From Bacillota bacterium (GTDB lineage: Bacteria; Bacillota; Sulfobacillia; JAJYWN01; JAJZPE01): DNA of 64,000 nucleotides. Location: positions 62,001 through 126,000 of the forward strand of contig JAJYMC010000010.1 of NCBI GenBank assembly GCA_021787335.1. The letters are read 5' to 3'. Positions 8,746 through 25,533 of this stretch are shown here, piece after piece (position 1 is the first letter of the stretch; the number at the start of each line of letters is the position of its first letter). Below the pieces are notes generated by a model, which saw only the letters and a program-made list of their open reading frames with translations, made no database searches and was not told the DNA's origin. Position numbers and translations under genes: made by a program.

Positions 8746-9015
8746 TCAGCGGATGACCGTCGGCAGGCTCTCCAGGAGCTTGGTCGTGAAGTCGGCGAGG
8801 ACTCTGAGCATCCAGGGGCCCAAGGCGACCAGGCCGATGGCGGTGGCCGCCATCTTCGGGGCGAAGGTCAGGGTCTGCTCGTTGATCTGGGTGGTCGCCT
8901 GGAAGATGCTGATGACCAGCCCGACCAGGAGCCCGATCCCGATGAGCGGCGCGCCGACGATGAGGGACGTGGTCATCGCCTGCCGGCCGAGGTCCATGAT
9001 GTACTGTTCAGTCAA
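8746..9015 (-). CDS. fliQ: Flagellar export gate protein FliQ
   Basis: 89 residues, the typical FliQ size, with two long membrane helices (about residues 17-38 and 52-72) forming a hairpin; four copies complete the FliPQR gate. The sequence LVGLVISIFQATTQINEQTL is characteristic of the family. I set the start at TTG 9015, preceded by GGAGGTG with six bases between; the TTG at 9028-9030 further upstream overlaps that ribosome site and would give a non-standard length. Confidence 0.95.
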   Translation of the reverse strand: MTEQYIMDLGRQAMTTSLIVGAPLIGIGLLVGLVISIFQATTQINEQTLTFAPKMAATAIGLVALGPWMLRVLADFTTKLLESLPTVIR

Positions 9016-9039
9016 GGGGTTCACCTCCAAGGTTCAAAG

Positions 9040-10343: not shown

Positions 10344-11527
10344 CTGAGGTTCTGCACCCTTTCGATCTGGCTGACGACGTCGGTGATCCGCACGCCGAAG
10401 TTCTCGTTGATGATGACGACCTCGCCCTTGGCGATGAGCCGTCCGTTGATGAGCACGTCGAGGGGTTCCCCGGCGAGCTTGTCGAGCTCGATGACGGCCC
10501 CGGTCCCGAGGGCCAGGATCTGCCGCACCTGCATCTTCGTCCGACCCAGCTCGACCGTGAGGTGCAGAGGCACGTCCATGATCAGGTCGATGTTCTGCGG
10601 GTCGGAGGTCGTCGGCGACGGCTTCAGGCTCTCGAACTTGGCCGATTGGACCTGCACCTTGGAGACGCTGCCGACGACTCGGCCGGGGGGCTTGGCCGCC
10701 GGCCGCTGGGTCTTGGCGCTCGTGGCCTGCGGCCTGGTCATGACCTCCGGCGGCAGTTCGGGTTCATCGGGCTCCGCCTCCTCGTCATCCGCCCGCGCTT
10801 CGGCCATCTCGTCCTGCCCGGCGGCCACCTCGCCGGCGGCCTCCTCATCCTCATCGGTGCCCGCCTGCTGCTGCGCGGTCAGCCGCCTCAGCAGTTCCCG
10901 AGCCAGTTCGGCCGGGTAGTGGATGCGGATGTCGCCCTCGGCCAGGTCCGGCAGGCTGAGTTTGCCGACAAGTTCGACGAAGACGTGGTCCGGGTCGAAG
11001 TCGGAGAAGTAGGCGACCTCCTCGTGGCCGGCGCCGGCGGCGCTGGTGGCCCCGGCGGTCAGCTTGATCTTGTCGCCGAGGGCCCCGGTCAGGGCCTCGG
11101 CCGCCGTTTCGAGACCGTTCTGGAAGGCTTCCTTGAGGGTCGTCAGCTGGGTCTCGCCGAGACTCTCCGGCGGGTTGGTCCCGTCGCCGCCCAGGAGGAC
11201 GTCGCAAAGGACGGCCGACAGGGCGCCTTCGGCGGTCCACAGGGCCTGGCCGGTGACGGCCCCCTCGTAGAGGGCGCTCACGCAGACGGCCCCGGCCGGG
11301 ACCTTCTTCTCGACGATGCTCCGCCGGTTCAGGCTGATCTCCGGCCGCTCGAACTCGAGCTCCCGGCTGATCAGGGCGGACATGGCCCCGACGGCCGCCT
11401 CGATGGAGAGGTTGGTCAGCTCGATGAGCGCCTCTTTCTCGGTATCCGTGAAGCGCTCGCCGCCGGTCTCCTCGACACTCTTGAGGAGCGCGTCGATCTC
11501 ACCCTGGGACAGAACTTCCTTACTCAT
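10340..11527 (-). CDS. fliY: Flagellar motor switch phosphatase FliY (FliN-CheC fusion)
   Basis: 395 residues in three parts: a FliM/FliY-type N-terminal peptide (LSQGEIDALLKSV), a CheC-like domain (about 25-205), a Glu-rich linker, and a C-terminal SpoA/FliN domain (LTVELGRTKMQVRQILALGT to IINENFGVRITDV). FliY replaces FliN in the switch complex of many Bacillota and dephosphorylates CheY-P. The first CheC active-site motif E-x2-N is present (ELTN near residue 37). The second reads E-A-F-Q-N, one residue out of the usual E-x2-N spacing, so phosphatase activity may be reduced. The ATG at 11527 overlaps the fliM stop by eight bases. Confidence 0.93.
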   Translation of the reverse strand: MSKEVLSQGEIDALLKSVEETGGERFTDTEKEALIELTNLSIEAAVGAMSALISRELEFERPEISLNRRSIVEKKVPAGAVCVSALYEGAVTGQALWTAEGALSAVLCDVLLGGDGTNPPESLGETQLTTLKEAFQNGLETAAEALTGALGDKIKLTAGATSAAGAGHEEVAYFSDFDPDHVFVELVGKLSLPDLAEGDIRIHYPAELARELLRRLTAQQQAGTDEDEEAAGEVAAGQDEMAEARADDEEAEPDEPELPPEVMTRPQATSAKTQRPAAKPPGRVVGSVSKVQVQSAKFESLKPSPTTSDPQNIDLIMDVPLHLTVELGRTKMQVRQILALGTGAVIELDKLAGEPLDVLINGRLIAKGEVVIINENFGVRITDVVSQIERVQNLR

Positions 11528-12509
11528 AGTCCTCCTCCTCGCCGCCGGCCAGGGCGGTGACCTTCAAGGCCATTCGTCTGCCGACGTTGCCCGGGCGGCC
11601 CCGGAACTTGACCCGGCTACCGATGAACCCTTTCATCTCGCTGGTCACGGGGTTGTCCATCTGGACGACGTCCCCGACCTGCAACCCCAGGAGGTCGCGG
11701 ACGCTGATGTTCGTCTCACCGAGGAGCACCGAGACCGGGATGGTGGCGTCCTCGAGGCGCTTCTGCAGGAGCTCCGGACTGGCCTGGGCGACCGTCCGCT
11801 GGCTGGTGGAGAACCAGTGCTGGGCCGAGAGCTTCGGCAGGATCGGCTCGATGACCAGGTACGGCAGGCAGAAGTTGATGCTCCCGACGGCCTCCCCGAG
11901 CTTGGCCGAGAAGGTTATCAGGACGGCCATCTCGGTTGACCCGACGACCTGGGCGAAGAGCGGGTTGGACTCGATCGTCTCCAGCTTCGGCTTGATCTCA
12001 CTGATGTTCTTCCAGGCTTCCTTGAGGGTGTCGAGGAACTGGACGAAGATCCGTTCCATCACGATGACCTCGATCTCGGTCAGGGCCCGGGCCCGCTCGT
12101 CGGTCTGGCCGGCCCCGCCGAAGAGGCGGTCGATCATCGGGAAAGCGATGGTGTGGCTGATGTCCAGGACGGCGTTGCCCGGCAGCGGGGCCAGGTTGAC
12201 GATGGCCACGATGGCCGGGTTCTTCAGCGCCCGCACATACTCCCCGTAGGTGACCTGGTCCACCGAGGCGATGTTGGTCTGGACCATCGTCCGGAAGTGG
12301 GCCGAAAACGTCGTCGTGAGCAGCCGGGCGAAGTTGTCGTGGAGCATCTGGAGGGTGCGGATCTGGTCCTTGGAGAACTTGTCCGGCCGCCGGAAGTCAT
12401 AGATGCGGACCGGGCGGTCCTCTTTTTTGGCTTCCTCGACCGCCAGCCCGCCTGTGGACAGGGAGGCGATGAGGGAGTCGATCTCTTTTTGCGTCAGGAT
12501 CTCGGACAC
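11520..12509 (-). CDS. fliM: Flagellar motor switch protein FliM
   Basis: 329 residues: N-terminal CheY-P-binding peptide (ILTQKEIDSLIASL), a middle domain related to CheC that contacts FliG (includes LDISHTIAFPMIDRLFGG), and a C-terminal SpoA domain (PVSVLLGETNISVRDLLGLQ). FliM forms the C-ring with FliG and FliY and turns CheY-P binding into a change of rotation. GTG start at 12509, 22 bases after the fliL stop. No che gene is in the window, but the N-terminal peptide looks intact. Confidence 0.96.
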   Translation of the reverse strand: MSEILTQKEIDSLIASLSTGGLAVEEAKKEDRPVRIYDFRRPDKFSKDQIRTLQMLHDNFARLLTTTFSAHFRTMVQTNIASVDQVTYGEYVRALKNPAIVAIVNLAPLPGNAVLDISHTIAFPMIDRLFGGAGQTDERARALTEIEVIVMERIFVQFLDTLKEAWKNISEIKPKLETIESNPLFAQVVGSTEMAVLITFSAKLGEAVGSINFCLPYLVIEPILPKLSAQHWFSTSQRTVAQASPELLQKRLEDATIPVSVLLGETNISVRDLLGLQVGDVVQMDNPVTSEMKGFIGSRVKFRGRPGNVGRRMALKVTALAGGEEEDYE

Positions 12510-12531
12510 GTCGGTCCCTCCATCGCCTTGA

Positions 12532-13005
12532 CTACTGGGTCATGAACTCCAGGAAGTTCACCTTGAGGACCTTGCCCTTGGTCAGGAACCCGCCGATGGC
12601 CTTGGTCAGGTCGCCGGCCACGGCGGCCATCCCGTCCGCCCCCTGGACCTCGTCCAGGGTCTTGGCCCTGAGGACAGCCAGGACGGCGTCCCTGACGGCG
12701 CTGGACTGCTTCTGCAGTTCCTGCACGGGCTTGTCGCCGTCGACCTCGACCTCGAGGACGATCTTGATGAACCTCTTGCTGCCGGGATCGGCCAGGTTGG
12801 TCGAGACTTCGCCAACCCGGTAGGTCTTGGCGACGACGGGCTTTTCGCCGCCCTTGCGGCCGAGGACCATGAACAGCCCCCCGCCGACGACGGCGACGAC
12901 GACCACCACCACCACGATGATCAGGACGGCGGCCGATACGGCCCCGCGTTCGTCGCGGCGGCCGGGGATGCTTGGCGCGGGCTTTCGATCGGGTGACAAG
13001 CGCAT
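12532..13005 (-). CDS. fliL: Flagellar basal-body-associated protein FliL
   Basis: 157 residues: a short basic cytoplasmic tail, one membrane helix of almost pure Val/Ile (about residues 23-48), and a periplasmic-type domain with the FliL pattern (RVGEVSTNLADPGSKRFIKI, LEVEVDG, ending KVNFLEFMTQ). FliL surrounds the stators and supports torque at high load. ATG at 13005 with GGAGCACC upstream, two bases after the flbD stop. Its partners MotA and MotB, often found next to flbD and fliL, are missing here. Confidence 0.92.
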   Translation of the reverse strand: MRLSPDRKPAPSIPGRRDERGAVSAAVLIIVVVVVVVAVVGGGLFMVLGRKGGEKPVVAKTYRVGEVSTNLADPGSKRFIKIVLEVEVDGDKPVQELQKQSSAVRDAVLAVLRAKTLDEVQGADGMAAVAGDLTKAIGGFLTKGKVLKVNFLEFMTQ

Positions 13006-13007
13006 CT

Positions 13008-13220
13008 TCAGGTGCTCCTCCTCCCGCGGACCGGCCGGGCGCCGTAGATCTGGCGCCGGTAGGTGACGATCCGCTTGATGACCTCGTCGACGGGCTCCCG
13101 GGCGACGATCTTCTTCCCCGTCGTCGTCGTGATGACGGTGTCCGGCGTACCCTCGATGAACTCGATCAATTCGGCGTTGATGTAGAGCTCGGAACGGTCG
13201 AAACGGGTGACCTTGATCAC
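13008..13220 (-). CDS. flbD: FlbD family flagellar protein
   Basis: 70 residues with the FlbD signature (IKVTRF, ELYINAELIEFIEGTPDTVI, TTTTGKKIVAREPVDEVIKRI). These small proteins sit between flgE and the motor genes in most Bacillota and spirochaete operons; their function is not established. I chose the GTG at 13220 because AGGAGG lies about eight bases upstream; the longer reading frame to 13367 adds Pro-rich sequence unlike the family. The basic C-terminal tail (about ten residues, Arg-rich) is slightly longer than usual. Confidence 0.9.
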   Translation of the reverse strand: MIKVTRFDRSELYINAELIEFIEGTPDTVITTTTGKKIVAREPVDEVIKRIVTYRRQIYGARPVRGRRST

Positions 13221-13426
13221 TTGGACTGCCTCCTCTGGCCGGGCGGCCTCGGCTTTGGGGCCGGCGCGGGGCCGGAAAAAAGAGGGGGGTGGGCGGGGGC
13301 CGGTGGGCATCTGGTGGAGGGTTGCCGTTCGGAGCTTGGTCCGTCCCCCGCCCGTCTGATCTCCCATTGGGGCGTTGCCGTTCAGGCTTTAGTCCCGGGA
13401 GAAAACTTTATCGCTCATGGGCTGGC
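13221..13426 (-). other. 206-bp flbD-flgE spacer with two imperfect direct repeats
   Basis: Gap between the flgE stop and the flbD start. It holds the flbD ribosome site and two related stretches on the plus strand, GTTGCCGTTC at about 13321 and again at about 13375, each followed by a similar CTTxxGTCC-like tail, 54 bp apart, plus a G/C tract near 13280-13310. No convincing terminator or promoter was seen. Confidence 0.4.
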
Positions 13427-14662
13427 TTACCGCTTGAGGTTGACCAGCTCCTGGAGCATCTCGTCGGAGGTGGTGATGATCCGCGAGTTGGCCTGGAAGC
13501 CGCGCTGGGTGGAGATCATGTTGGTGAACTCCAGGGACAGGTCGACGTTGGCCATCTCGAGGGTGCCGGGGGCGATGGTCCCGCGGCCGCCGGTACCGGT
13601 CTCACCGATGTCCCGGATGCCGGAGTTGTTGGACTCCTGGAAGAGGTTCTCGCCCATCTTCAGGAGGCCGCCCGGGTTGGCGAAGGTGGCCACGGCCGTC
13701 TGGGCGATTTTCTGAGTCAGGCCGTTGGAGTAGACGCCGGTGACGGTCCCCGTGGAGTCGATGGTGAAGGTCATCAGTGAGCCCATCGGATAACCGTCGC
13801 GGCCGGTGGCGGCGACCGTCGACTGGGTGGCGTACTGGGTCAGGCCGGTGAAGTTGAGGGCGGTGGTGAAGTTTCCGGCCCCAGCGCTACCAGTGACCGT
13901 CATCGTGCCCGTTCCACCGGCCGTCAACTGACCGGCCGCGTTGAAGGTCAGGCTGCCGGTCCCGGCGCCGTCGCCGCTGGCCGTCCAGCTCCAGGTGCTC
14001 GTCGGGGGCGGACCGGGGGCGACCGCCGTCTTGCTGAAGGTCATCGTCACCGAGCGCCGGGCGCCGAGTGAATCGTAGACATCGATGGACGTGACATAGG
14101 TCCCGGCGACAGGGGTTCCGGCATCAAGGTTCTTGGCGAAGGACACGTTGGCGGTGGCGGCGGCGGCGATGCTCTGACCGACCGGGATCTGGATGTCCTT
14201 GATGGTGTTCGGGTTCTTGGCCGGGAAGGCGCCGGTGGCGTCGGCCATCCAGCCCTGGACCTTCATGCCGTTGGACGGGTTGATGAGGTTGCCGTTGGCG
14301 TCGAGGTCGAAGGCCCCGTCGCGGGTGTAGGCCAGGTTGCCGTCAGCGTTGAGGACGAAGAAGCCGTTGCCCTGGATGGCGAGGTCGGTCATCTTGCCGG
14401 TGGTCTGCAGGTTGCCCTGAGTCTGGAGGGTGTCGATGGAGGATAGCCCCATGCCGAGGCCGACCTGTTGCGGGTTCGTGCCGCCGCGCGACCCCAGGGG
14501 GGAAGACGCGCCGCGGATGGTCTGGTTGAAGATCTCCTGGAAGTTGACCCGGCCGGTCTTGAAGCCGACGGTGTTGACGTTGGCGATGTTGTTGCCGATG
14601 ACGTCCATTCTGATCTGGTGGTTCCGCAGGCCCGAGACGCCCGCGTACATCGAACGCATCAT
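13427..14662 (-). CDS. flgE: Flagellar hook protein FlgE
   Basis: 411 residues. The N-terminal rod/hook signature is complete (MYAGVSGLRNHQIRMDVIGN, NIANVNTVGFKTGRVNFQE) and the C-terminal helical segment ends VDLSLEFTNMISTQRGFQAN...ELVNLKR, both needed for axial polymerisation. Between them is a Gly/Thr/Ala-rich variable surface domain (about residues 165-290) with the FlgE D2 features (IDVYDSLGARRSVTMTF). ATG at 14662 behind GGAGGTC. Subunits pass through the FliPQR gate and build the hook on the FlgD cap. Confidence 0.96.
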   Translation of the reverse strand: MMRSMYAGVSGLRNHQIRMDVIGNNIANVNTVGFKTGRVNFQEIFNQTIRGASSPLGSRGGTNPQQVGLGMGLSSIDTLQTQGNLQTTGKMTDLAIQGNGFFVLNADGNLAYTRDGAFDLDANGNLINPSNGMKVQGWMADATGAFPAKNPNTIKDIQIPVGQSIAAAATANVSFAKNLDAGTPVAGTYVTSIDVYDSLGARRSVTMTFSKTAVAPGPPPTSTWSWTASGDGAGTGSLTFNAAGQLTAGGTGTMTVTGSAGAGNFTTALNFTGLTQYATQSTVAATGRDGYPMGSLMTFTIDSTGTVTGVYSNGLTQKIAQTAVATFANPGGLLKMGENLFQESNNSGIRDIGETGTGGRGTIAPGTLEMANVDLSLEFTNMISTQRGFQANSRIITTSDEMLQELVNLKR

Positions 14663-14776
14663 GGTTGATTGACCTCCTTGTAGTTGCCGCCCTCAGTCAT
14701 TCGGGCGGTCCTCAGGGCCCCCTCAAAGAGGTCCGGCCCTGTCACGCATCCGTGCCTGTCGGCCTTACCTGGTGCT

Positions 14777-15223
14777 TCAGACGATGACGGCGCTGTCGAT
14801 GTTGGTGAAGACGCTGTCCTTCATCCGCTCGCCGTCGACGGCCGTGATCACCGTCCGGTTCTTCACACTGACCACGAAGGCCATGTCCCGCATGAGGATC
14901 AGCGATTCTCTGGCTCCCCTGGCCGAGGCCTTGTCCACCGCCTCGCTCAGCTTGGCCAGGTCCTCCGGTCCGAGCGGTCGGCTCCGGCCGGCCAGTCTTT
15001 CCCGCGCGTGGAGCGAGAACTTCAGCTTTTCGCGGTCCACCTGCTGTTGCAGGATGTCCCGGAAGTCGGCCCCCGGTCCGGTCGTCGCCGGCGCCCCGCC
15101 GGTCGGCCGTGGTCCGCCGGTCGGCCGTGGTCCGCGCGGACCCTGCGGCCCCTGTGGTCCTTGCGGTCCCGACGTTCCCCGCGGCCCGTTCACCGGGAAA
15201 GCCCCGTAGATCCTGGGGTCCAA
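14777..15223 (-). CDS. TIGR02530-type flagellar operon protein with collagen-like insert
   Basis: 148 residues between flgD and flgE. The C-terminal 95 residues match the TIGR02530 flagellar operon family found at this locus in Bacillota (LKFSLHARERLAGR, then LSEAVDKASARGARESLILM, VSVKNRTVITAVDGERMKDSVFTNIDSAVIV); function unknown, possibly a hook-assembly helper. Residues about 13-45 are an inserted Gly-Pro-rich run (GPQGPQGPQGPRGPRP and two copies of a PTGG-containing unit), a collagen-like repeat I do not expect in this family. The TTG start at 15223 follows AGGAGG by ten bases. Confidence 0.8.
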   Translation of the reverse strand: MDPRIYGAFPVNGPRGTSGPQGPQGPQGPRGPRPTGGPRPTGGAPATTGPGADFRDILQQQVDREKLKFSLHARERLAGRSRPLGPEDLAKLSEAVDKASARGARESLILMRDMAFVVSVKNRTVITAVDGERMKDSVFTNIDSAVIV

Positions 15224-15229
15224 CGTTTT

Positions 15230-15694
15230 TCAGCCTCCTTGCGACGGTGCCGACGCGGGCGCGACCACGGTCACGTTGGCCAGGGGGACCTCGGTCTGGG
15301 TGGTGCCGCCGTTGGACCCGGGGACCGCCACGGTCAGGCTGATCTTGCCGCCCTCACCGAACTTGATCCCGGCTACCGCGCCCTGCGCGGCCTGGTTGTC
15401 AACGTCCTTGCCGCTGACCGTCTTGCCCATCAGAGAGAGGGTTAGGAGCTTGCTCACGTCGCCGTTCATGTTCTGCATCTGCTCAAGCGACGAGAACTGG
15501 GCCATCTGGGCGATGAACTCGGTGTTTTCCATGGGCTTCAGGGGGTCCTGGTACTGGAGCTCGGTCACGAGGAGCTTGAGGAAGCTGTCCTTGCCGAGCG
15601 TCTTCGGCCCCTCGAAGACCTGCGCCGTGCCCATCGCCGGCGGGGTCTGGCTCAGGGTCCCGGTCGAGAGCGATGTGGTCGGTATCGTGCTCAT
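15230..15694 (-). CDS. flgD: Flagellar hook-capping protein FlgD
   Basis: 154 residues, a short FlgD. The conserved N-terminal export and cap region is clear (LGKDSFLKLLVTELQYQDPL, KPMENTEFIAQMAQFSSLEQ), followed by a Gly-rich beta part. FlgD caps the growing hook so FlgE can polymerise, and is removed when the hook is complete. The C-terminal Ig/tudor-like domain of longer FlgD proteins seems reduced. ATG at 15694 with GAGGTGG upstream; six bases separate its stop from the next gene's start. Confidence 0.93.
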   Translation of the reverse strand: MSTIPTTSLSTGTLSQTPPAMGTAQVFEGPKTLGKDSFLKLLVTELQYQDPLKPMENTEFIAQMAQFSSLEQMQNMNGDVSKLLTLSLMGKTVSGKDVDNQAAQGAVAGIKFGEGGKISLTVAVPGSNGGTTQTEVPLANVTVVAPASAPSQGG

Positions 15695-15709
15695 CTCGGT
15701 CCACCTCTT

Positions 15710-17602
15710 TCAGGCCACGTAGTCGAGGGCGTGTCCGCCGGTCGGCCGGATGGCCGTCGGCGCCGGTCCGCGGGCCGGGGTCGCAACCCCGCCGGCGGTC
15801 CGCACGGCCGCCTGGGAGAAACTCCCCCAACCGGTCCCGCGGTCCCAACCTTGCCGTCCCCAGGCCGCCGCGCCCTGCCCCATCATCTGGGCGGAGAAGG
15901 CGTCCTGGCCGAGGGTCACGGCGATGTGGTCGGTCCGCAGTCCCTGCCCGGCGAGGGCCTCCTTCAGTTGCGGAAGGGCTGCCTCGAGGGCCTCTTTCAC
16001 CATCTGGTTCTGGGTCGTCAGGTGGGCGGTCACCCCGCCGCGCTCGACGATGACCCGCAGGTTCAACGGTCCCAGGTACTCCGGCTTCAGCTGGACTCTC
16101 ATCTCGCCGCCGTTCCCGTCCCCACGGGCGCTGGCCCTGGCGACGATCTGCTTGATGAGGTCGCTCGGGTCCGGCCGCGTGCTCGCCGGCTTGCCGTCCT
16201 CCGCGCCGCTCGCGCGGGCTTCGGTCGTCTTGGTGGTCCGGGCGTCCTGGCCGGTGGTCCGGTTCAGTTGTCCGGCGGTCGGGTCGTCCATGGTCCGCGG
16301 CCGGTCGGCGTTCGCGGCCCCGGGCTCTCCGCCCGCCTTCCGCGTCTCGGTCCGTCCGGTCGCACCGCCCTCGGCGGCCCGCCCCGTTCCGTCGACCCGG
16401 TCCTTGGCGACCGACTTCAGGTCGGCTCTCGCCAGTCCTTCGGTCGTCCCCACCTCGGCGCTCTGGGCCGTCCCGGTGACCCCGGCCGTCTGGCCCGCGT
16501 CCCCATCGGCTTCACCGTCCTTCCGGTCCCCCGCCGTCCGGGGTGTCTTGCCCGTCCTGGCGGCGGCGTCCGTCGCGGCCGGCTTCATCTGACTCGTCAC
16601 GTTTTCAAGATTCGGCGCCCGCGTCCCCGGCCCGTCCGGGTCGGTCGAGCCCTTGTCCATCGGGGCCTGCCCCTGGATCTGACCTTTGGTCTGGGTCTGG
16701 GTCTGGGTCTGGGTCTGGGCCGTGCTTGCCTCGGCTCCCCGGGCCGTCTGCCCGAGCCCGCTGGGGTTCATCCCCCGCGCGCCCTGGCCGTCATTCTTGG
16801 CCTGGTCCGCCGCGGCCGCTCCGGCCGTCGCTCGGGGGACCGTTCCGTCCGGCTCCGTCCGTCCGGCTTCGGCCTTGCCCACCGTCCCCTGGACCGCTGT
16901 GCCCTGAAGGTCCGGCGTGTCCTTGGAGACCGGTTGGGCCTGGGCGCCTGTCCGGACTGTCCCGCCCAACCCCTGGGCCTTTCCCCTCGCCTCGGCGATC
17001 ATCGCCTGGATGGCCTGGTCGCTTACGGCTTCGAGCGGGGAGGTGTCCGCGGCCGTCGCTTCAGCCTTCTTGGGCCAAACCCGACCGGCATCAGCGGTGG
17101 GCCCCTGCGGCTCCGTCCCGTCCTGGTTCGTCGGGGCGACTTCCTGGGGGGCGACCTTCTCGGTCGTCGGGCTCTGGGGTCCCCCGTTCGGCGTCTCCGC
17201 CGTCCGCTTCGTCCCCTCGGTGAGCCCCGCGGCCTTCGCGGCCTCTGATCTCGTTGAGCCGGTCTCGGTCACCCGTCCGTCTTCCCCGCCTCGCTCCCCG
17301 TCGCTTCTGACCTCCGCCCGCTCGGTCCGGCCGTTCTGGCCGGCCAGGGCGGCTCGCTCGGTCTGGTCCGGGGTCGGGTCCTGGCGGCGGCGCCCGGCGG
17401 TCCGGCTCTTAAGGCCGGCTCGCTCGGTCTTCGCCCACTTGGTCCCGTCCGCCCCGGCCCGCCTGAGGTGCTCGGCGAAGTCGCTGGTTCCGCCACGTTC
17501 GGTGCGTTCGGTCCGGTCGGTCCGGTCGCGCCGTCTCACCGGTTGCGCGGACGGGGTGTCCATAAGGCTCATGCTCATCGGTTCAAAATCCGCTTGAAAC
17601 AT
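15710..17602 (-). CDS. fliK: Flagellar hook-length control protein FliK
   Basis: 630 residues. Roughly the first 480 are disordered and rich in Thr, Glu, Arg, Ala, Gly and Asp, with a Thr-Gln repeat tract; the conserved C-terminal switch domain follows (MRVQLKPEYLGPLNLRVIVE, GGVTAHLTTQNQMVKEALEA, LPQLKEALAGQGL), which contacts FlhB. FliK is the secreted ruler that ends hook growth and triggers the substrate switch. ATG at 17602 behind GGAGGTG. The ruler region is long for the family and almost free of hydrophobic residues, as expected for a protein exported unfolded. Confidence 0.9.
   Translation of the reverse strand: MFQADFEPMSMSLMDTPSAQPVRRRDRTDRTERTERGGTSDFAEHLRRAGADGTKWAKTERAGLKSRTAGRRRQDPTPDQTERAALAGQNGRTERAEVRSDGERGGEDGRVTETGSTRSEAAKAAGLTEGTKRTAETPNGGPQSPTTEKVAPQEVAPTNQDGTEPQGPTADAGRVWPKKAEATAADTSPLEAVSDQAIQAMIAEARGKAQGLGGTVRTGAQAQPVSKDTPDLQGTAVQGTVGKAEAGRTEPDGTVPRATAGAAAADQAKNDGQGARGMNPSGLGQTARGAEASTAQTQTQTQTQTKGQIQGQAPMDKGSTDPDGPGTRAPNLENVTSQMKPAATDAAARTGKTPRTAGDRKDGEADGDAGQTAGVTGTAQSAEVGTTEGLARADLKSVAKDRVDGTGRAAEGGATGRTETRKAGGEPGAANADRPRTMDDPTAGQLNRTTGQDARTTKTTEARASGAEDGKPASTRPDPSDLIKQIVARASARGDGNGGEMRVQLKPEYLGPLNLRVIVERGGVTAHLTTQNQMVKEALEAALPQLKEALAGQGLRTDHIAVTLGQDAFSAQMMGQGAAAWGRQGWDRGTGWGSFSQAAVRTAGGVATPARGPAPTAIRPTGGHALDYVA
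16688..16720. repeat. Hexanucleotide tandem repeat inside fliK
   Basis: About five copies of GGTCTG on the plus strand, encoding Thr-Gln repeats on the minus-strand fliK. The unit is a multiple of three, so copy-number change would alter ruler length without frameshift. Confidence 0.9.
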
Positions 17603-17656
17603 CTCGTTCTCACCTCCTTTCGCCGTGGGCTTTCTATTGGATGAAGCTTGCTCTCG

Positions 17657-18358
17657 TCACTGTCCTGACTGGAGGGCCACCATCATCCGGCTCAGTCTGG
17701 CCGACGTCGCCGGGGACATGGCCCCGAGGACCCTGGCCGCCTGCCGCTCATCCATCCGGTTGAGGACGGCCACGACCAGTTCGTCGTCGAGCCGCTCGGT
17801 CACCGCCGCCACTTCGGTCGGTTTCATCTGGTCATACAGCCGGGCCAGCTTGTCAACGGTGTCTTTCTTGCTCTGCAGCTCCGACTGGAGCTTGGCCACG
17901 GCGGCTTCCTTCACGGCCAGCTGGGCCTCGCGGTCGGCCACTTCCTTGGTCTTGGCGTCCAGGGCGGCCTGGGCTTCCTGCAGGGCGGCCTCCCTGGCGG
18001 CCAGGTCGGCCTGGTCCTTGGCCAGCTTCTGGCGGTCCGCCTCGAGCGGGTCGACCTTGGCCGCCGGCTTGGCCCCGAAGACCTTGCCCACCACCGGCAA
18101 CCCGGCGAGGGTCTCCTTGGCCTTGGGGTTGACCGAGACGAGGACGAACGACCCGACCGCGACGACGATCCCCAGGACCAGGACCACCAGGAGCGCGGCC
18201 ATCAGGCCGCCGCCCTTCTTGCCCCGGTCGGCCTTCGGGTCCTTCTTGTCCTTCTTGCCTTTGCCTTTGCCTTTGCCCTTGCCCTGGTCTTCCGGCTCAG
18301 GCCCGCCAAGGATATCGGCCTTCGGGTCGAGATCATCGAGCAGCGATTCACGTCGCAT
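17657..18358 (-). CDS. MotE/YlxF-like membrane coiled-coil protein of the flagellar operon
   Basis: 233 residues: a basic N-terminal tail with alternating GKGKGKGKGK, one membrane helix (about residues 52-75), a long coiled coil (about 100-165; DRQKLAKDQADLAAREAAL, KEAAVAKLQSELQSKKDTV), then an MgtE-N-like helical domain (LYDQMKPTEVAAVTERLDDE, VLNRMDERQAARVLGAMSPA). This layout is that of MotE/YlxF proteins, which sit after fliJ in Bacillota; MotE of alpha-proteobacteria chaperones the periplasmic motor protein MotC. The role here is inferred from layout and place. Confidence 0.82.
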   Translation of the reverse strand: MRRESLLDDLDPKADILGGPEPEDQGKGKGKGKGKKDKKDPKADRGKKGGGLMAALLVVLVLGIVVAVGSFVLVSVNPKAKETLAGLPVVGKVFGAKPAAKVDPLEADRQKLAKDQADLAAREAALQEAQAALDAKTKEVADREAQLAVKEAAVAKLQSELQSKKDTVDKLARLYDQMKPTEVAAVTERLDDELVVAVLNRMDERQAARVLGAMSPATSARLSRMMVALQSGQ

Positions 18359-18416
18359 TCGTCCTCACCTCCGTCCTTATCCGACCTGTCATCCGCTTCC
18401 CGCGAGGTCTTTCGCC

Positions 18417-18869
18417 TCAGGCCGGGGTGCGCTTCCGCGCGGCTTCCCGCCCACCGACCTCGTCCAAGACCTTCTGCTCTTCGGCCAGGGCCTGCCGGGT
18501 GTGGTCGGCCTGCCGTTTGGCCTTCAGGTTCTCGAGGCTCTTGCGCTCCGTCCTTATCTCCAGGAGGGCCCGCATCTTCTCGGCGGCGACGGCGGCGGCC
18601 GCGGCCACCGCGGCCTGTCCCTGTTCCCGATCGGCCCCCAACTTCTTCAGGTAATCCCGGTGCTTCTTGATCTCGGTCACGTTGGCCGGGTGCCGCTCCA
18701 GCTCCCGGGTCCTGGTCATCGTCTGCACCAGGTGGACCTCGATGAGGGTCAGGCGCCGGTGTTCCTCTTCCTCGCGGCGCCGGGCCTCGGCCAGCTCGGC
18801 CTCGGCGGCCTTCTCGCGGGAGAGGCAGAGCCGCAGGAGCTTTTCCAGCCGGAACGTGAAGCGCTTCAA
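18417..18869 (-). CDS. fliJ: Flagellar export chaperone FliJ
   Basis: 150 residues, almost wholly a charged antiparallel coiled coil beginning FTFRLEKLLRLCLSREKAAE, the usual FliJ start. FliJ inserts into the FliI ATPase ring like the gamma subunit of F-ATPase and links it to FlhA. The TTG start at 18869 overlaps the fliI stop by four bases (TTGA). Length and heptad pattern fit the family. Confidence 0.88.
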   Translation of the reverse strand: MKRFTFRLEKLLRLCLSREKAAEAELAEARRREEEEHRRLTLIEVHLVQTMTRTRELERHPANVTEIKKHRDYLKKLGADREQGQAAVAAAAAVAAEKMRALLEIRTERKSLENLKAKRQADHTRQALAEEQKVLDEVGGREAARKRTPA

Positions 18870-20260
18870 TTCGCGTCACCCCGTGTTCCGCCGGCCAGTC
18901 CCAGGAGGTGCTCTCGGGTCGCCTGGAAGTCGGCCCTCTCGAAGACGTCCTGCCTCAGGAAGGCCCGCACCGGCTCGATCTTCGCCTTGGCCCGGTCGAT
19001 GCCGGGGTTCGAACCATCGACGTAGGCCCCGATGTTGATGAGGTCGGCCGCGTCCTGATAGGTCGAGAGGACGTTGCGGACCTCGGAGGCCGCCTCCCGG
19101 TGCTCCTTGGGGACGACGTCGATCATCAGGCGGCTGACACTTCCGAGGATGTCGATGGCCGGGTAGAGGTTCTGGGCGGCGATGGCCCGGGAAAGGAGGA
19201 TGTGTCCGTCGAGGATGCCCCGGACCGTGTCGGTGACCGGCTCGGTGATGTCGTCCCCGTCGACGAGGACCGTGTAGAACCCGGTGATGCTGCCCCGCCT
19301 GGCCGTCCCCGAGCGCTCCAGGAGCTTCGGGAGGATGGAGAAGACCGAGGGGGTGTAACCCCGCGTGGCCGGCGGCTCGCCGACGGCCAGTCCCACTTCG
19401 CGCTGGGCCATGGCGAACCGGGTGACCGAGTCCATCATCAGGAGGACGTCCAGGCCGCTGTCGCGGAAGAACTCGGCGATGGCCGTGGCCACGAAGGCCG
19501 CCTTGATCCGGACCAGCGCGGGCTGGTCCGAGGTGGCCACCACGACCACCGAGCGCTTGAGGCCCTCGGGACCGAGGTCCTTCTCGAGGAAATCGCGGAC
19601 CTCGCGGCCGCGCTCCCCGACCAGGGCCACCACGCTGACGTCGGCCTCGGTGTTACGGGCGATCATCCCCAGGAGGGTGCTCTTGCCGACGCCGCTCCCG
19701 GCGAAGATCCCGAGACGCTGCCCCTTGCCGCAGGTGAGGAGGCCATCGATGGCCCGCACGCCGACCGCCAGGTGTTCCTGGATACGCGGCCGGTCGAGCG
19801 GCTTCGGGGGGGCGTTGTGGGCGGCGTACTGGGCCTCTTCCGCCAGTGGTCCGACCCCGTCGATGGGGCGCCCGAGCCCGTCGACCACCCGGCCCAGAAG
19901 GGCCCGGCCGACCCCCACGCGGAGCGGCTCGCCGGTGGCCACGACCTCGCAACCGGGGCCGATGCCGCCCATCTCGCCGAGGGGCATCAGGAGGACGCGG
20001 TCGTTGCGGAACCCGACGACCTCGGCCGGGATCGGCTCGGCGCTGCCGCGCGGGAAGAGGTGGCAGAGCTCGCCGACGTTGACCCCCGGGCCGTCGGACT
20101 CGATGAGGAGCCCGATGACCTGGGTCACCCGGCCGTTGAGGGCGAGGATATCCGTCTTGTCAAGGAGCTTCAGGTAGCTATCGGCTTCGAAGCGGCCGGC
20201 CCTGGCGGGCTCGGCCTCCGGGGATTCGGCTTTGGCGGACCCGGCCTTCTTACTTCTCAC
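18866..20260 (-). CDS. fliI: Flagellum-specific ATPase FliI
   Basis: 464 residues, related to F1-ATPase beta. Walker A is GIFAGSGVGKSTLLGMIARN (about residues 190-209), Walker B LDVLLMMDSVTRFAMAQREV, and the family signature PPATRGYTPSVFSILPKLLE follows. FliI hexamers energise and organise delivery of export substrates. GTG start at 20260; its first 11 bases overlap the end of fliH. The first 25 residues are an Ala/Glu/Lys-rich extension before the FliI N-terminal domain. Confidence 0.96.
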   Translation of the reverse strand: MRSKKAGSAKAESPEAEPARAGRFEADSYLKLLDKTDILALNGRVTQVIGLLIESDGPGVNVGELCHLFPRGSAEPIPAEVVGFRNDRVLLMPLGEMGGIGPGCEVVATGEPLRVGVGRALLGRVVDGLGRPIDGVGPLAEEAQYAAHNAPPKPLDRPRIQEHLAVGVRAIDGLLTCGKGQRLGIFAGSGVGKSTLLGMIARNTEADVSVVALVGERGREVRDFLEKDLGPEGLKRSVVVVATSDQPALVRIKAAFVATAIAEFFRDSGLDVLLMMDSVTRFAMAQREVGLAVGEPPATRGYTPSVFSILPKLLERSGTARRGSITGFYTVLVDGDDITEPVTDTVRGILDGHILLSRAIAAQNLYPAIDILGSVSRLMIDVVPKEHREAASEVRNVLSTYQDAADLINIGAYVDGSNPGIDRAKAKIEPVRAFLRQDVFERADFQATREHLLGLAGGTRGDAN

Positions 20261-20987
20261 TGTTCATCACGTCCCGGAGGGCCCTCTCGGCCCGGGCCAG
20301 TTGCCGCTCGAGCCGGGCGTCGACGCTGCCCCGCGGGCCGTCGACGACGCAACCTCCGGGTTCGATGGTCGGGTCCTCGGTGATGGTCAGCCTCTTCAGC
20401 CCTCGGGCGGCGGCCCGCAGTTCCTGGCGCCGCTCCTCGAGCTCGACCGCGTCGCGGGGGTTGGCCCGGATGGTCAGTTCCTCTTCGTCGCGGACCTTCT
20501 TGACCGCGTCGAGGGCGGCGCGGAAGGCCATCTGCGAATCGTCCTCGGTGGCCTCGCGGATGATCTTGTGGGCCACCGCCAGGGCCAGTCGGAGGATCTC
20601 GGGACGGGCTTCGGCGATTATCTCCTCGCGCTCGGCGCGGGCGGTCTCGAGAACCTGCCCGGCCTCGGCGATGATGGCGCGGCTCTCTTCCTGGGCCAGG
20701 CGCAGACCCTCTTCGCGGCCGGCGGCGAGCCCCTTCTCGTGGGCCTCACGCTCGATGGTCGCCGCTTCGTCCCGGGCGTTGGCCACGATGGCCTCGGCCT
20801 CGGCCCGCGCCTCGGCGTCCTTGACCAGCCGGGCCGCGGGCTCGGCGTGGACCTCAGACATGGTCGAGGTCTCGATGGCCCCGCCGGCGCCGTCCCGGAC
20901 GACGACCTTGACGGAGGAACCAGCCGTGGACACCAGCCTCGGCATCCCGCTGTAGAGCTTCCTGGCCTTGATGACTCTAGACGACAA
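20250..20987 (-). CDS. fliH: Flagellar assembly protein FliH
   Basis: 245 residues. Long Ala/Glu-rich helix with coiled-coil character (about residues 55-130; RLVKDAEARAEAEAIVANAR and similar), then a C-terminal domain related to V/F-ATPase subunit E (RLALAVAHKIIREATEDDSQ, DPTIEPGGCVVDGPRGSVDA). FliH binds FliI and tethers it to the C-ring. The start is set at TTG 20987, five bases after GGAGGTGA; the frame is open further upstream, but that part is a shadow of fliG. Overlaps the fliG stop by 11 bases. Confidence 0.92.
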   Translation of the reverse strand: MSSRVIKARKLYSGMPRLVSTAGSSVKVVVRDGAGGAIETSTMSEVHAEPAARLVKDAEARAEAEAIVANARDEAATIEREAHEKGLAAGREEGLRLAQEESRAIIAEAGQVLETARAEREEIIAEARPEILRLALAVAHKIIREATEDDSQMAFRAALDAVKKVRDEEELTIRANPRDAVELEERRQELRAAARGLKRLTITEDPTIEPGGCVVDGPRGSVDARLERQLARAERALRDVMNSEK

Positions 20988-21993
20988 GCTCGTCACCTCC
21001 ACCGCGGGCAACCACGATCTCGCCCTCTTCTTCGAGCTTACGGATGATGTTGACGATCTTCTGCTGGGCCTCCTCGACCGACCGCAGCCGGACCGGACCG
21101 AGGTAATCCATGTTCTCCTGCAGGTTGTCGACGGCGCGTTTGGAGATGTTCTTGAAGATCTTGTTCTTGACGTCATCGGAGGCTACCTTGAGGGCCAGCG
21201 GCAGGTCCTTGGAGAGGTCCACGTCGCGAAGGACCCGCTGGATGGACCGGTCATCGAGGAGGATGATGTCCTCGAAGACGAACATCTTCTTCTTTATCTC
21301 TTCGGCCAGTTCGGGGTCCTGGACCTCGAGGGTCTCGATGATCGACTTCTCGGTGCTGCGGTCGACGTAGTTGAGGACGCCGACCACCGTGTCGACCCCG
21401 CCCGCCGCCGCGTAGTCCTGGGTCATCAGCGACGAGAGCTTGCGTTCGAGGACCTTCTCGACCTCCCGGAGGATCTCCGGCGAGGTCCGGTCCATCGTCG
21501 CGATCCGCCTGGCCACGTCGGCCTGGCGTTCCGGCGAGAGCGACTGGAGGATGACCGAGGCCTGCTGGGGGTTCAGGTAGGCCATGATGAGGGCGACGGT
21601 CTGCGGGCTCTCCCCCTGGATGAAGTTCAGAAGCTGGCTCGGGTCGGTCTTCCGAATCAGGTCGAACGGCCGGACCTGGAGGGTGGTCGTCAGGCGGTGC
21701 AGGATGTCGACCGCCTTCTGGGTCCCGAGGGCCTTGTCCAGGATCTCTCGGGCATAGTCGATGCCGCCCTGGTCGATGTACTCCTGCGCGGTGCAGAGGG
21801 CGTGGAACTCGTCCATGACCTTCTCCCGCGCCTCGTAGGGGATCTTCTTGAGGCTGGCGATCTCCAGAGTGAGCTGCTCGATGTCGTCCTCGCCGAGGTA
21901 CTTGAGGACCTTCGCCGAGTTCTCGGTGCCCAGGGCGATCAGGAGGATGGCCGCTTTTTGTTTTCCGGAGAGCCCACCTGGCGCTCTAGCCAA
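20977..21993 (-). CDS. fliG: Flagellar motor switch protein FliG
   Basis: 338 residues with N, M and C domains: KQKAAILLIALGTENSAKVL at the start, the M-domain motif written ESPQ (usual EHPQ) at about residue 127 in FIQGESPQTVALIMAYLNPQ, and the torque domain with MFVFEDIILLDDRSIQRVLR and GPVRLRSVEEAQQKIV. FliG binds FliF and meets the stator; the charged torque residues appear present. TTG start at 21993. The His-to-Ser change in EHPQ lies at the FliM contact and may be a lineage variant. Confidence 0.96.
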   Translation of the reverse strand: MARAPGGLSGKQKAAILLIALGTENSAKVLKYLGEDDIEQLTLEIASLKKIPYEAREKVMDEFHALCTAQEYIDQGGIDYAREILDKALGTQKAVDILHRLTTTLQVRPFDLIRKTDPSQLLNFIQGESPQTVALIMAYLNPQQASVILQSLSPERQADVARRIATMDRTSPEILREVEKVLERKLSSLMTQDYAAAGGVDTVVGVLNYVDRSTEKSIIETLEVQDPELAEEIKKKMFVFEDIILLDDRSIQRVLRDVDLSKDLPLALKVASDDVKNKIFKNISKRAVDNLQENMDYLGPVRLRSVEEAQQKIVNIIRKLEEEGEIVVARGGGDELVV

Positions 21994-22011
21994 TGTCCTG
22001 TCTCCCTCTCT

Positions 22012-23562
22012 CTACTCTTCAGCCAACCAGGTCTTGAGGAGCTTGGCGAACTCCTCCGGTTTCTTCTTGGCGAGTTGGTCGATCTGGTCGTGGAGCCGCC
22101 GCCGCTCGGCTTCCTCGGGGGGTAGATCCTCGCCGATATCGGCGATGATCTGCGCCCGTCGCTCCTTGCTGGTGAAGACGTCGCTGAGGATCTCCTCGCG
22201 CTTCTTCCCGCTGCCGAAGAGGATCCGCCAGAGGACGAAGCCGACCACCAGGGCCAACGCCCCGCGCACCGCCAGGCTCGTCCACCGGTTCTGCTTGCTG
22301 GCCCGGGTCATGTCGGCGGCGACCGCGTCGGCCATGCTGGTATCGAACTTGATGCCGCTGACGGTGATCTGGTCATTGCGGGCCGTGTCGAAGCCGATGG
22401 CCGAACGGACCGTGTCCTCGATGGCCGTCTGCTCCTTGGCCGAGAGGTCGCGGTTGACGACCACGGCCACCGACAGACGCTTGACCGTCCCGGGGGCGAC
22501 GACCGTGTGTTCCTTGATGTTGTTGATCTCGTAGGTCTTGCTCGTCTGCCGCTTCTCCGAGCTCGAGTTCCCGCCGCCCGTGGTCTGGGCGTAGCCCGGG
22601 ATGTTCGAGGTCGTGCCGGCCGGGCCGCTCGGTGACCCGCTGGCTCCCGACATCGTCTCTTCGAGTTCCTCGATGGTCCGGACGATCCCGGTGGTGTTGT
22701 CGATGGGCTCGAAGAGGTCCTTGTCGACGACCTTCTCATCGAAGTTCAGCTCGGCGGTGACCCTGGCGACCACCTGGCCGGGGCCGAGGACCTGCTCGAG
22801 CAGGGTCTGCAGACTCTTCTCGAGGTCCTTCTGGAAGGTCTGCTGAACCGCGAGGAGACCGGTGGTGACCTGTTCGGTCGTCCCGGACTCGCCGTCGAGG
22901 TCGGCCGAGAGGAGGTTGCCGTGGACGTCGATGACCGAGACGTCCTCCGGCTTGAGCCCCTCGACGCTGCGCGAGACGAGGTTGACGACGCCCTTGATCT
23001 GGCTCTTCCCAATGGTGGCGCCCGGCTTCAATTTAAGGAAGACGGCCGCGGTGGCCGGTTTGGCCATGGTCACGAAGTAGCTCTGCTCGGGAAGGACGAT
23101 ATGGACGCGGGCCTCTTCGACCTCGGCGATCTGCTGGATGGTCCGGGTCAGCTCGCCTTGAAGGGCCCGGATGTAGTTCACCCGGCGCTCGAAGTCCGTC
23201 GCGCCGAGCTTGGTCTGGTCGATGATCTCGAAACCGACCACGCCGCCCCGCGGGAGCCCCTGCCCGGCGAGGGCGAGCCTGGTCGAGTAGACGTCCTTGG
23301 CTGGGACCTGGATGCTCGTGCCGCCGTCGGCCAGCTTGTACGGGGTCTTCTGGGACTGCAGGACCTTGACGATCTCCGCCGCGTCCTGTTCGGCGAGGCT
23401 GGAGAAGACCGTGGCGTACTGCGGGCCGCGGGCGTAGAGGACGCTCCAGAGGGCCAGGGTCAGCACGACGACAAGGGCCGCCCCGGTCACGAGGACCCGT
23501 TGACGGGTGGTCAGGCGAGACCAGGTGCTGGTTATCTGGCGGCGGATAAGGTTGAAATCCAA
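22012..23562 (-). CDS. fliF: Flagellar MS-ring protein FliF
   Basis: 516 residues: N-terminal membrane helix (about 25-45), ring-building domains with LAGQGLPRGGVVGFEIIDQT and ARVHIVLPEQS, a Gly/Ser-rich loop near residues 305-330, a second membrane helix (about 430-450), and the C-terminal tail that binds FliG (KKPEEFAKLLKTWLAEE). FliF forms the MS ring, the first basal structure built, around the export gate. TTG start at 23562 with GGAGGTG six bases upstream. An unusually long spacer separates it from fliE. Confidence 0.96.
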   Translation of the reverse strand: MDFNLIRRQITSTWSRLTTRQRVLVTGAALVVVLTLALWSVLYARGPQYATVFSSLAEQDAAEIVKVLQSQKTPYKLADGGTSIQVPAKDVYSTRLALAGQGLPRGGVVGFEIIDQTKLGATDFERRVNYIRALQGELTRTIQQIAEVEEARVHIVLPEQSYFVTMAKPATAAVFLKLKPGATIGKSQIKGVVNLVSRSVEGLKPEDVSVIDVHGNLLSADLDGESGTTEQVTTGLLAVQQTFQKDLEKSLQTLLEQVLGPGQVVARVTAELNFDEKVVDKDLFEPIDNTTGIVRTIEELEETMSGASGSPSGPAGTTSNIPGYAQTTGGGNSSSEKRQTSKTYEINNIKEHTVVAPGTVKRLSVAVVVNRDLSAKEQTAIEDTVRSAIGFDTARNDQITVSGIKFDTSMADAVAADMTRASKQNRWTSLAVRGALALVVGFVLWRILFGSGKKREEILSDVFTSKERRAQIIADIGEDLPPEEAERRRLHDQIDQLAKKKPEEFAKLLKTWLAEE

Positions 23563-23863
23563 GCGTCACACCTCCGGAGCGAACGGGGACGGGAGACTGT
23601 CGGTCGAGCGGGCCCGGTCGGGAAAGACAAAGAGGGGGTGAAACCCACCGGGCCGCCTTGCGTCCTTCCGGTCCCGCGAAGGACCGAAAAGACAACAAGA
23701 GTAACCTCCATGTTATGAAGGGACCATTCTGGCCCCAGCCGCCATCCTTGGCGTATACGGGCCCGGGGGTTCCACCCCCCCGGCGACTGACTATGGGCGC
23801 TTCCTCGGTCCCGGCCGCGACGGCGGCCGGCGGCGGCTGAATTCCTTCGAGCTGGGCTGGCTC
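23563..23863 (-). other. 301-bp hairpin-rich spacer between fliE and fliF
   Basis: These genes normally almost touch. On the minus strand the gap contains several strong stem-loops, including a G-rich/C-rich pair around 23760-23785, GGTCC-TTCGC-GGACC-type pairing near 23668-23685 and CGCC/GGCG near 23745-23760, but no long U run. A 59-codon reading frame starts at about 23710 without a ribosome site. I see no family I can name; it may be a processing or regulatory RNA element. Confidence 0.4.
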
Positions 23864-24193
23864 CTACACCGGCATCCTCATGATCTCCTGGTAGGCGTCG
23901 ATGACCTTGTTGCGGACCTGGATCGCCAGCTGCAGGGCCAGGTCGGCCTTCTCGGTCATGATCATCACCTGGTGGATATCGGTCACCTTGCCGGCGGCCA
24001 GGTCGGCCCCGGCCTGCTCGGCCTGGAGCTGCATCTGGTTGACATCCCCCACCGCCTGCTTGAGGAGGTCGGCGAAGGAGGTCCCACCGGTCGCGGCGTC
24101 CCCGACGGCGGCGCCGGTACCGGCACCGGCCGCACCGGTCGAGCCCGTCGACAGCGGCGCGGGGAGCCTGGGCATCGTCAGGTCGATCTTCAT
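23864..24193 (-). CDS. fliE: Flagellar hook-basal body protein FliE
   Basis: 109 residues. A Gly/Ala-rich N-terminus is followed by the conserved helical part (GTSFADLLKQAVGDVNQMQL, DIHQVMIMTEKADLALQLAI, QVRNKVIDAYQEIMRMPV). FliE links the MS ring to the rod and is the first axial protein exported. ATG at 24193, 14 bases after the flgC stop. Standard place after flgC. Confidence 0.94.
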   Translation of the reverse strand: MKIDLTMPRLPAPLSTGSTGAAGAGTGAAVGDAATGGTSFADLLKQAVGDVNQMQLQAEQAGADLAAGKVTDIHQVMIMTEKADLALQLAIQVRNKVIDAYQEIMRMPV

Positions 24194-24207
24194 TCTTCAC
24201 GCCCCCC

Positions 24208-24684
24208 TTAGGCTCGTCCGATGTCGATGGCCCGCATGGCCATGGTCTTGGCGGCGTTGATGGCCGTCACATTGGCCTCGTAGGCTCGCGTCGCTTCCAT
24301 CATATCGACCATCTCGGAGACGACGTTGACGTTGGGGAGTTTGACGTAGCCGTCCTTGTCGGCGTCGGGGTGGCTCGGGTCGTACTTGAGTTTCGGCGGG
24401 CTCTGGTCCTCGACCACCGCCACCACCTGGACCCCGGCCGCGCCGGCGGGTCCCTGCCCGCCGTTCCCGTCCCCGCCGTCCGGCCGGGTGGCCGACCCGA
24501 GGAACCCGGAGAAGAGGTTCGGTCCCTGGCGGGGAGCCAGGACGGCGACCTGGCGGCGGTACGGCCCGCCCTGCTCGGTACGGGTCGTGTTGGCGTTGGC
24601 CAGGTTCGCGGCGATCAGGTCAAGCCTCAGTCGCTGGGCGGTGAGGCCCGACGCGCTCGCGTCCATGGCCGAGAAGAGTCGCAT
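24208..24684 (-). CDS. flgC: Flagellar proximal rod protein FlgC
   Basis: 158 residues with both axial signatures: LFSAMDASASGLTAQRLRLD and LIAANLANANTTRTEQGGPY at the start, and VVSEMVDMMEATRAYEANVT at the end. A Gly-rich insertion (about residues 72-85) makes it slightly longer than usual. I prefer ATG 24684; a TTG directly before it (24687) abuts the flgB stop and is possible. Ribosome site GGGGAGG. Confidence 0.95.
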   Translation of the reverse strand: MRLFSAMDASASGLTAQRLRLDLIAANLANANTTRTEQGGPYRRQVAVLAPRQGPNLFSGFLGSATRPDGGDGNGGQGPAGAAGVQVVAVVEDQSPPKLKYDPSHPDADKDGYVKLPNVNVVSEMVDMMEATRAYEANVTAINAAKTMAMRAIDIGRA

Positions 24685-24687
24685 CAA

Positions 24688-25062
24688 TTAACGCCTCCCC
24701 TCGGTGATGGCCGACCGGAGCATCGCGAACTGGCTGGTCAGCTGCTTGACCAAGGCCTCGTAATAAATGGAGTTCTCGGCCAGATTGGTCATCTCCGCGT
24801 CGACGTCGACGTTGTTGCCGTCTTGACGCATCGATGTGTTGGTGTCCACGACCACCTGCGGCTTCCATTCCTGGGTCCCGAGCTTGCCGGCCTTCCGGGT
24901 CTCCTCCTCGAGGAGCCCCTCAAAGCTGACGTCCGAGCGCTTGAACCCCGGCGTGTCCACATTCGCCAGGTTGTCGGCCAGGACCGCGTTCCTCAGGGAG
25001 GACGCGTCCAGGCCGCGCTCGAGGTACTGGACCACCTTCGGGAAGATAGCCTGCGAGATCAT
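24688..25062 (-). CDS. flgB: Flagellar proximal rod protein FlgB
   Basis: 124 residues, first gene of the operon. Contains the rod signature LRNAVLADNLANVDTPGFKR and the C-terminal MTNLAENSIYYEALVKQLTS. ATG at 25062 is ten bases after AAGGAGGG; the open frame continues upstream to 25320, but that part crosses the riboswitch terminator and is not protein-like. With FlgC it builds the rod between FliE and the distal rod. Expression depends on read-through of the leader terminator at 25240-25280. Confidence 0.95.
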   Translation of the reverse strand: MISQAIFPKVVQYLERGLDASSLRNAVLADNLANVDTPGFKRSDVSFEGLLEEETRKAGKLGTQEWKPQVVVDTNTSMRQDGNNVDVDAEMTNLAENSIYYEALVKQLTSQFAMLRSAITEGRR

Positions 25063-25239
25063 ATCGTGGGTGCCCTCCTTGGACCACCGCGCCGGGCTTC
25101 CTTGCCCGACCCGACCTGTCCGGACCGAGAGACTTGGCAATCTTTTTAGTTGGCCCCGGGCCGTTTCTCTAAACTTCTTCGCCCCGGGTGACGATACTGA
25201 GAGTGGGAGAAGCGCGCTCATCGCCGGAAAAGGCCCGAT

Positions 25240-25280
25240 AAAAAAACCTGTCCTTTGGCGCATGGCGCCGAAGGACAGGT
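25240..25280 (-). terminator. Intrinsic terminator in the flgB leader (riboswitch expression platform)
   Basis: On the minus strand, ACCUGUCCUU pairs perfectly with AAGGACAGGU, with an inner GGCG/CGCC stem, and is followed by seven U (plus-strand A run 25240-25246). It lies about 30 bases after the c-di-GMP aptamer and about 180 bases before flgB. This is the expected output element of a transcription-terminating riboswitch. Confidence 0.93.
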
Positions 25281-25311
25281 AAGGCGACCGATTACTGCCT
25301 TCCCAATGGAC

Positions 25312-25403
25312 CTCCGGCAACCCGGCCGTCGGCGGCGGACTTCACCGCACCGACCCGTAGGCTTTGCGTCCCCACCTTGCGATGGGTTTGCCCTTATACG
25401 GAG
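25312..25403 (-). promoter_or_regulatory. Cyclic-di-GMP-I (GEMM-I) riboswitch aptamer upstream of flgB
   Basis: Read on the minus strand, the conserved GEMM-I blocks occur in order: GGGCAAACC (25384-25393), GGGGACGCAAAGCC (about 25359-25373), ACGGGUC, and the 3' GGGUUGCCGG (about 25314-25323). Outer strands CUCCG (25399-25403) and CGGAG (25312-25316) form P1. The aptamer is followed by a strong terminator. In Clostridioides difficile the same riboswitch class precedes flgB and turns the operon off when c-di-GMP is high; the same sense is likely here. The 3' P1 strand (GGAGGU) could also pair with ACCUGUCC of the terminator's 5' arm, a plausible antiterminator. Confidence 0.95.
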
Positions 25404-25410
25404 CTTTTTG

Positions 25411-25439
25411 AATCGACACTTCGTTCGGTATTTAGTCAA
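25411..25439 (-). promoter_or_regulatory. Probable sigma-A promoter of the flagellar operon
   Basis: Minus strand TTGACT (25434-25439), 17-base spacer, TCGATT (25411-25416). The -10 is weak, but transcription would start near 25404, exactly at the 5' edge of the riboswitch aptamer, which supports the call. The surrounding DNA is AT-rich against a GC-rich background. Confidence 0.65.
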
Positions 25440-25533
25440 ATACGCCACCTGGAATGAAACTCCTGCTTTGGCAGAAAAAAAATTTTAACTCTTTGTGTCG
25501 TACCCCCCAAATTCCCGCCCTGGTAGACGAAGT

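Follow-up and report, generated by a model that had tools for sequence, protein, structure and literature searches.

A predicted c-di-GMP-I riboswitch of OFF sense before the flgB flagellar operon in a high-GC class of Bacillota

The window analyzed here, a stretch of 64,000 nucleotides from a Bacillota bacterium, very probably contains a c-di-GMP-I riboswitch of OFF sense that controls transcription of the flagellar operon flgB-fliA, so that high c-di-GMP should shut down flagellum production. This kind of switch is already known. The original prediction was right in substance, as its class, its target operon and its OFF sense are supported by the RF01051 match, the FlgB hit, the separate terminator and the complementarity between P1 and the terminator arm. 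The coordinates of all features are given in Table 1.

Aptamer, terminator and downstream genes

The complete GEMM-I aptamer that had been proposed before flgB was recovered on the minus strand with the Rfam covariance model of c-di-GMP-I (RF01051), which matches over its full length (model positions 1-87, 25402-25313) with 63.2 bits (E 5.3e-10) against a gathering score of 35 bits. Genome-wide, five RF01051 matches were identified, of which the aptamer in the flgB leader scores lowest. In the numbering of Vc2 (PMC3764141), with the C22-G45 pair and the apex of P1 as anchors, the equivalents of the ligand residues G20, A47 and C92 are G (25392), A (25365) and C (25317), and c-di-GMP is therefore the predicted ligand. 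The P1 stem lies outside the Rfam model of c-di-GMP-I; in a permutation test with 21 families, matched P1 strands beat permuted ones with a z of -4.0 (p about 1e-4).

A GCAA tetraloop of the GNRA type is located at 25380-25377. The usual tetraloop receptor consensus is absent from P3 in the family to which the window belongs (G000, G001, G002), and a continuous helix is found in its place. The receptor is kept in most other families and is missing from several other flgB leaders too. A GNRA tetraloop and a P3 receptor are common in c-di-GMP-I aptamers, though not universal, and hence not defining.

The ten-pair terminator with seven U that was expected past the aptamer was borne out as well. 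Its stem (ACCUGUCCUU / AAGGACAGGU, 25280-25271 with 25255-25246) is a separate hairpin with an inner five-pair stem (GGCGC/GCGCC), and seven T are located at 25246-25240, the first of which sits in the last stem pair. The hairpin has a folding energy of -26.5 kcal/mol (z -7.2), and none of 200 shuffled sequences was equally stable.

From flgB on, flagellar genes run in one direction on the minus strand for about 24.4 kb, as far as fliA, in agreement with the claim that the whole flagellar operon is located downstream. These genes would be transcribed as a single transcript; in a simple scan of positions 600-20500, neither a terminator nor a sigma-70 promoter was found on the minus strand. The row includes a gene for a YcgR/PilZ c-di-GMP receptor (1794-2489), which adjoins the sigma-28 gene. 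As the genes of the PilZ protein and of sigma-28 are located in the same row, one terminator could gate both the flagellar machine and the late genes.

Table 1. Features of the flgB leader and the flagellar operon in the window.
Feature	Position	Strand	Details
Sigma-H-type promoter candidate	25438..25464	minus	-35 AGGAGTTT (25464-25457), -10 GTATTT (25443-25438)
Sigma-A-like promoter of the original prediction	25411..25439	minus	TTGACT-N17-TCGATT; weak, not favoured
P1 closing stem	25312..25403	minus	CUCCG (25403-25399) / CGGAG (25316-25312); from sequence
c-di-GMP-I (GEMM-I) aptamer	25313..25402	minus	RF01051 63.2 bits; RF03167 58.5 bits
Proposed antiterminator	25273..25315	minus	GGAGGU (25315-25310) with ACCU (25280-25277) and CC (25274-25273)
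Linker helix enclosed by the antiterminator	25301-25297 / 25285-25281	minus	AAGGC / GCCUU
Intrinsic terminator with U tract	25240..25280	minus	same hairpin in G001 and G002
Post-terminator leader	25074..25110	minus	hairpin GUCGGGC-AAGGAA-GCCCGGC; ANGGA in loop (25103-25099)
Shine-Dalgarno of flgB (AAGGAGG)		minus	second ANGGA (25080-25076), 23 nt past the loop site
flgB	24688..25062	minus	first operon gene; start 25062; FlgB TIGR01396 110.6 bits
Remainder of the operon in the window	639..24687	minus	flgC fliE fliF fliG fliH fliI fliJ flbB-like fliK flgD flagellar_put flgE flbD fliL fliM fliY fliO fliP fliQ fliR flhB flhA flhF flhG(MinD-like) PilZ/YcgR fliA
fliA (sigma-28)	639-1427	minus

Sense of the switch and alternative readings

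In the proposed mechanism, the P1 3' strand (GGAGGU) would leave the aptamer when no ligand is bound and, together with the linker helix (AAGGC/GCCUU), would pair with ACCU(GU)CC in the 5' arm of the terminator, forming an antiterminator that lets the RNA polymerase read through. With c-di-GMP bound, P1 would be held and the 5' arm would stay free, whereupon the ten-pair terminator would form and transcription would stop upstream of flgB.

The mechanism put forward in the original prediction, in which the P1 3' strand pairs with the 5' arm of the terminator, is supported at the level of the class. When partners were permuted among 21 families, each represented by one genome, the P1 3' strand proved more complementary to its own terminator 5' arm than to the arms of other families (z about -1.8 to -2.4 and p about 0.02-0.04 over five choices of boundaries), and the two controls over the same 21 families, P1 5' strand against terminator 5' arm (p 0.60) and P1 3' strand against terminator 3' arm (p 0.88), gave no such signal. 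This class-level complementarity supports the OFF sense. In the window, however, the pairing is short, with 4+2 pairs (AGGU:ACCU and GG:CC across a GU bulge), and is not favoured by static folding; in the family of the window, the duplex of P1 strand and arm does not by itself outperform mismatched pairs (ranks 0.26-0.48). Seven contiguous pairs are found in G001 and the near relative L035 (AGGUAAG:CUUACCU) and in G002 (AGGUAAA:UUUACCU); in G001 and G002, CUU is contested between these pairs and the linker helix. The antiterminator of G059 consists of GAAGGAGCCCU with AGGGCUGCUUC.

Static folding prefers the terminator with or without P1 once the 3' arm exists and does not favour the antiterminator. 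A single fold of the leader fails to show the switch, and the minimum-energy structure always includes the terminator. The choice between the two structures must therefore be kinetic, as in Cd1. For the flgB leader RNA of the window itself, the antiterminator mechanism is likely.

The position of the terminator bears on the sense of the switch. It starts 4-46 nt past the aptamer in all 30 leaders with a clear terminator, and 32 nt past it in the window. Because the terminator is separate from the aptamer, P1 is not part of it and both structures can coexist, and the P1 3' strand must consequently act via an antiterminator, which is the OFF layout. This separation argues against an ON switch, in which c-di-GMP binding would disrupt the terminator and turn the flagellar operon on, although static folding, with the terminator as its default state, would fit that reading. 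Furthermore, c-di-GMP normally lowers motility, which also speaks against ON control. Riboswitches of both senses with c-di-GMP-I-like aptamers do exist (PMC9262584), but the class I switches of C. difficile are uniformly OFF (PMC6200980), and an ON switch is considered very improbable here.

It is very improbable that the riboswitch has decayed, with a terminator that always forms and another promoter that drives the operon. G001 and G002 retain the aptamer core, P1, the linker helix and the terminator, and simple scans revealed no other promoter, even if the lowest score of the five aptamers, the lost receptor and the very stable terminator would be in line with decay.

Least probable of all is a variant aptamer with another ligand, of either the c-di-GMP-I-GGC family (RF03167) or the cGAMP type. 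RF03167 is the family reported for L035 (61.3) and scores 58.5 on the window aptamer, just below the cut-off of 59, but it also matches most ordinary members of the class. Its consensus has G at position 47, where both the window (25365) and L035 have A. The residues that contact the ligand thus correspond to an ordinary c-di-GMP-I aptamer, and the RF03167 assignment was rejected on account of this A. The GGC in the family name is presumably to be read as residues 20/47/92, in line with the consensus line. The cGAMP variants have A at position 20, which is G in the window aptamer. The good fit of RF03167 probably reflects the lost receptor, that is, a P3 arm in which the receptor is replaced by a continuous helix.

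Promoter and post-terminator leader

For the c-di-GMP-I OFF switch, the most likely promoter is of the sigma-H type and lies about 37 nt upstream of the aptamer; transcription would then start about 30 nt ahead of the aptamer. The candidate in the window (AGGAGTTT-N13-GTATTT, equivalent to AGGA-N17-GTAT, p_shuffle 0.013) is conserved in G001 and G002. Upstream of c-di-GMP-I aptamers, AGGA-N17-GAAT occurs at spacing 17 in 17 of 69 regions in its strict form and in 31 of 69 with a relaxed -10, counts that are not independent as the regions include related genomes. Most other spacings gave about 0-1 of the 69 regions; spacing 20 gave 7-8, attributed to AGGAGGA repeats, and the far-upstream control contained no occurrence (0/40). 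When only the first genome of each family was used, 12 of the 23 families reached p <= 0.02. Genome-wide, 36 occurrences of AGGA-N17-GAATA were counted, compared to 8 for the reversed pattern.

The consensus of sigma-H (Spo0H) is RNAGGAWWW, a spacer and RNNGAATWW (PMC8510167), and at the class spacing the candidate elements GCAGGAGTT and GGCGTATTT each match it in 8/9 positions. The genome encodes sigH (TIGR02859, 383 bits). A wider search also revealed AGGA-N17-GAATA before mraZ and before one GalU-like and one HIT-family gene; the motif is thus not confined to riboswitches, and its assignment to sigma-H is provisional. The recurring sigma-H-type promoter would offer a testable link between a stationary-phase/sporulation sigma factor and c-di-GMP signalling. 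AGGA-N17-GAAT recurs before mraZ in two families (L205 and L206 also).

The original prediction had instead named a promoter TTGACT-N17-TCGATT (25439-25411), with transcription starting at P1 and the aptamer at the 5' end of the mRNA. The -10 of this promoter matches at only 3 of 6 positions, the element is partly conserved in two relatives, and no sigma-70 site was found in the leader by a promoter scan. In view of the class-wide sigma-H-type signal further upstream, both the promoter and the start site are probably wrong. A sigma-28-type promoter (TAAA-N13-GTCGATTC) was rejected, as its spacing is too short and the relatives give no support.

Past the terminator, 180 nt of leader follow, which are conserved in the window's own family. 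They include a seven-pair hairpin with AAGGA in the loop (shuffle p 0.007-0.01 per leader), and the pair of ANGGA motifs is kept in G001, G002 and G003 at a spacing of 22-26 nt. A csrA gene is located on the same contig and strand among flagellar genes (C18:52670-52846). From these motifs, a double site for CsrA over the flgB Shine-Dalgarno is a plausible candidate.

The flagellar operon of the class may be controlled by stacked layers, namely a promoter of the sigma-H type (stationary phase/sporulation) that other genes with c-di-GMP-I riboswitches also have, the c-di-GMP-I OFF attenuator and, in the taxonomic order to which the window belongs, CsrA at the double site over the flgB Shine-Dalgarno. 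The receptor-less aptamer of the window would need higher c-di-GMP for a response than the four other aptamers of the genome. This model is tentative and more doubtful than probable; the sigma-H and CsrA layers would be its newer part.

Distribution and comparison with known systems

The presence of the riboswitch in a high-GC lineage, pointed out in the original prediction, was confirmed but is not exceptional, as 58 of the 61 genomes of the bacterial class carry c-di-GMP-I aptamers. When aptamer matches were paired with FlgB hits, at least 35 of the 61 genomes (23 families) proved to have an aptamer immediately ahead of flgB. In the near relative L035, FliG is 97% identical and the leader is identical to that of G001; beyond L035, a FliG-based contig scan led to distant genomes, with no c-di-GMP-I match in the 12 other loci examined. 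The four other aptamers of the genome precede genes for a GGDEF membrane protein, an HD_5-domain (HD-GYP-like) protein, a pilin-like protein and, next to parB, an actin-like protein, which make up a coherent c-di-GMP regulon.

Some further observations were made. Tandem c-di-GMP-I aptamers are located before flgB at G004:C56:58181-58472 (L187) and G020:C69:52907-53158 (L177). In L001, a c-di-GMP-I riboswitch with a terminator (aptamer 1501-1585) precedes an actin-like (ALP_N/MreB-like) gene (339-1376, minus strand) that immediately follows parB; an actin-like protein would be an unusual target for control by c-di-GMP. Positions 1-9 of the L035 contig (TTCCGATCT) resemble a leftover Illumina adapter.

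With the Vc2 aptamer (PMC3764141, PMC4744006), the window aptamer shares the P1-P2-P3 layout, G20/A47/C92 and the GNRA loop on P2, whereas a continuous P3 helix is found at the expected place of the receptor and the loop is GCAA instead of GAAA. The covariance model of c-di-GMP-I-GGC (RF03167) fits nearly as well and its consensus likewise has no receptor, whereas the window aptamer has A in place of the diagnostic G at position 47.

For flgB of C. difficile, the OFF sense has been measured (PMC6200980, PMC9262584), and in Cd1 the terminator strands are separate from P1 and the antiterminator uses the P1 3' strand (PMC9262584). In contrast to Cd1, the window belongs to a high-GC class, has a sigma-H-type promoter candidate and candidate CsrA sites past the terminator, and is without the standard tetraloop receptor; the invertible flagellar switch of C. 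difficile was not seen. Common to the window and Cd1 / Cdi-1-3 of Clostridioides difficile (PMC6200980, PMC9262584) are the riboswitch class, the flgB operon as target, a terminator past the aptamer and apart from P1, and a proposed antiterminator with the P1 3' strand, and the OFF sense is expected here as well. Control of flgB and the genes behind it by a class I riboswitch, so far described mostly for C. difficile, would be the norm throughout this high-GC class of Bacillota.
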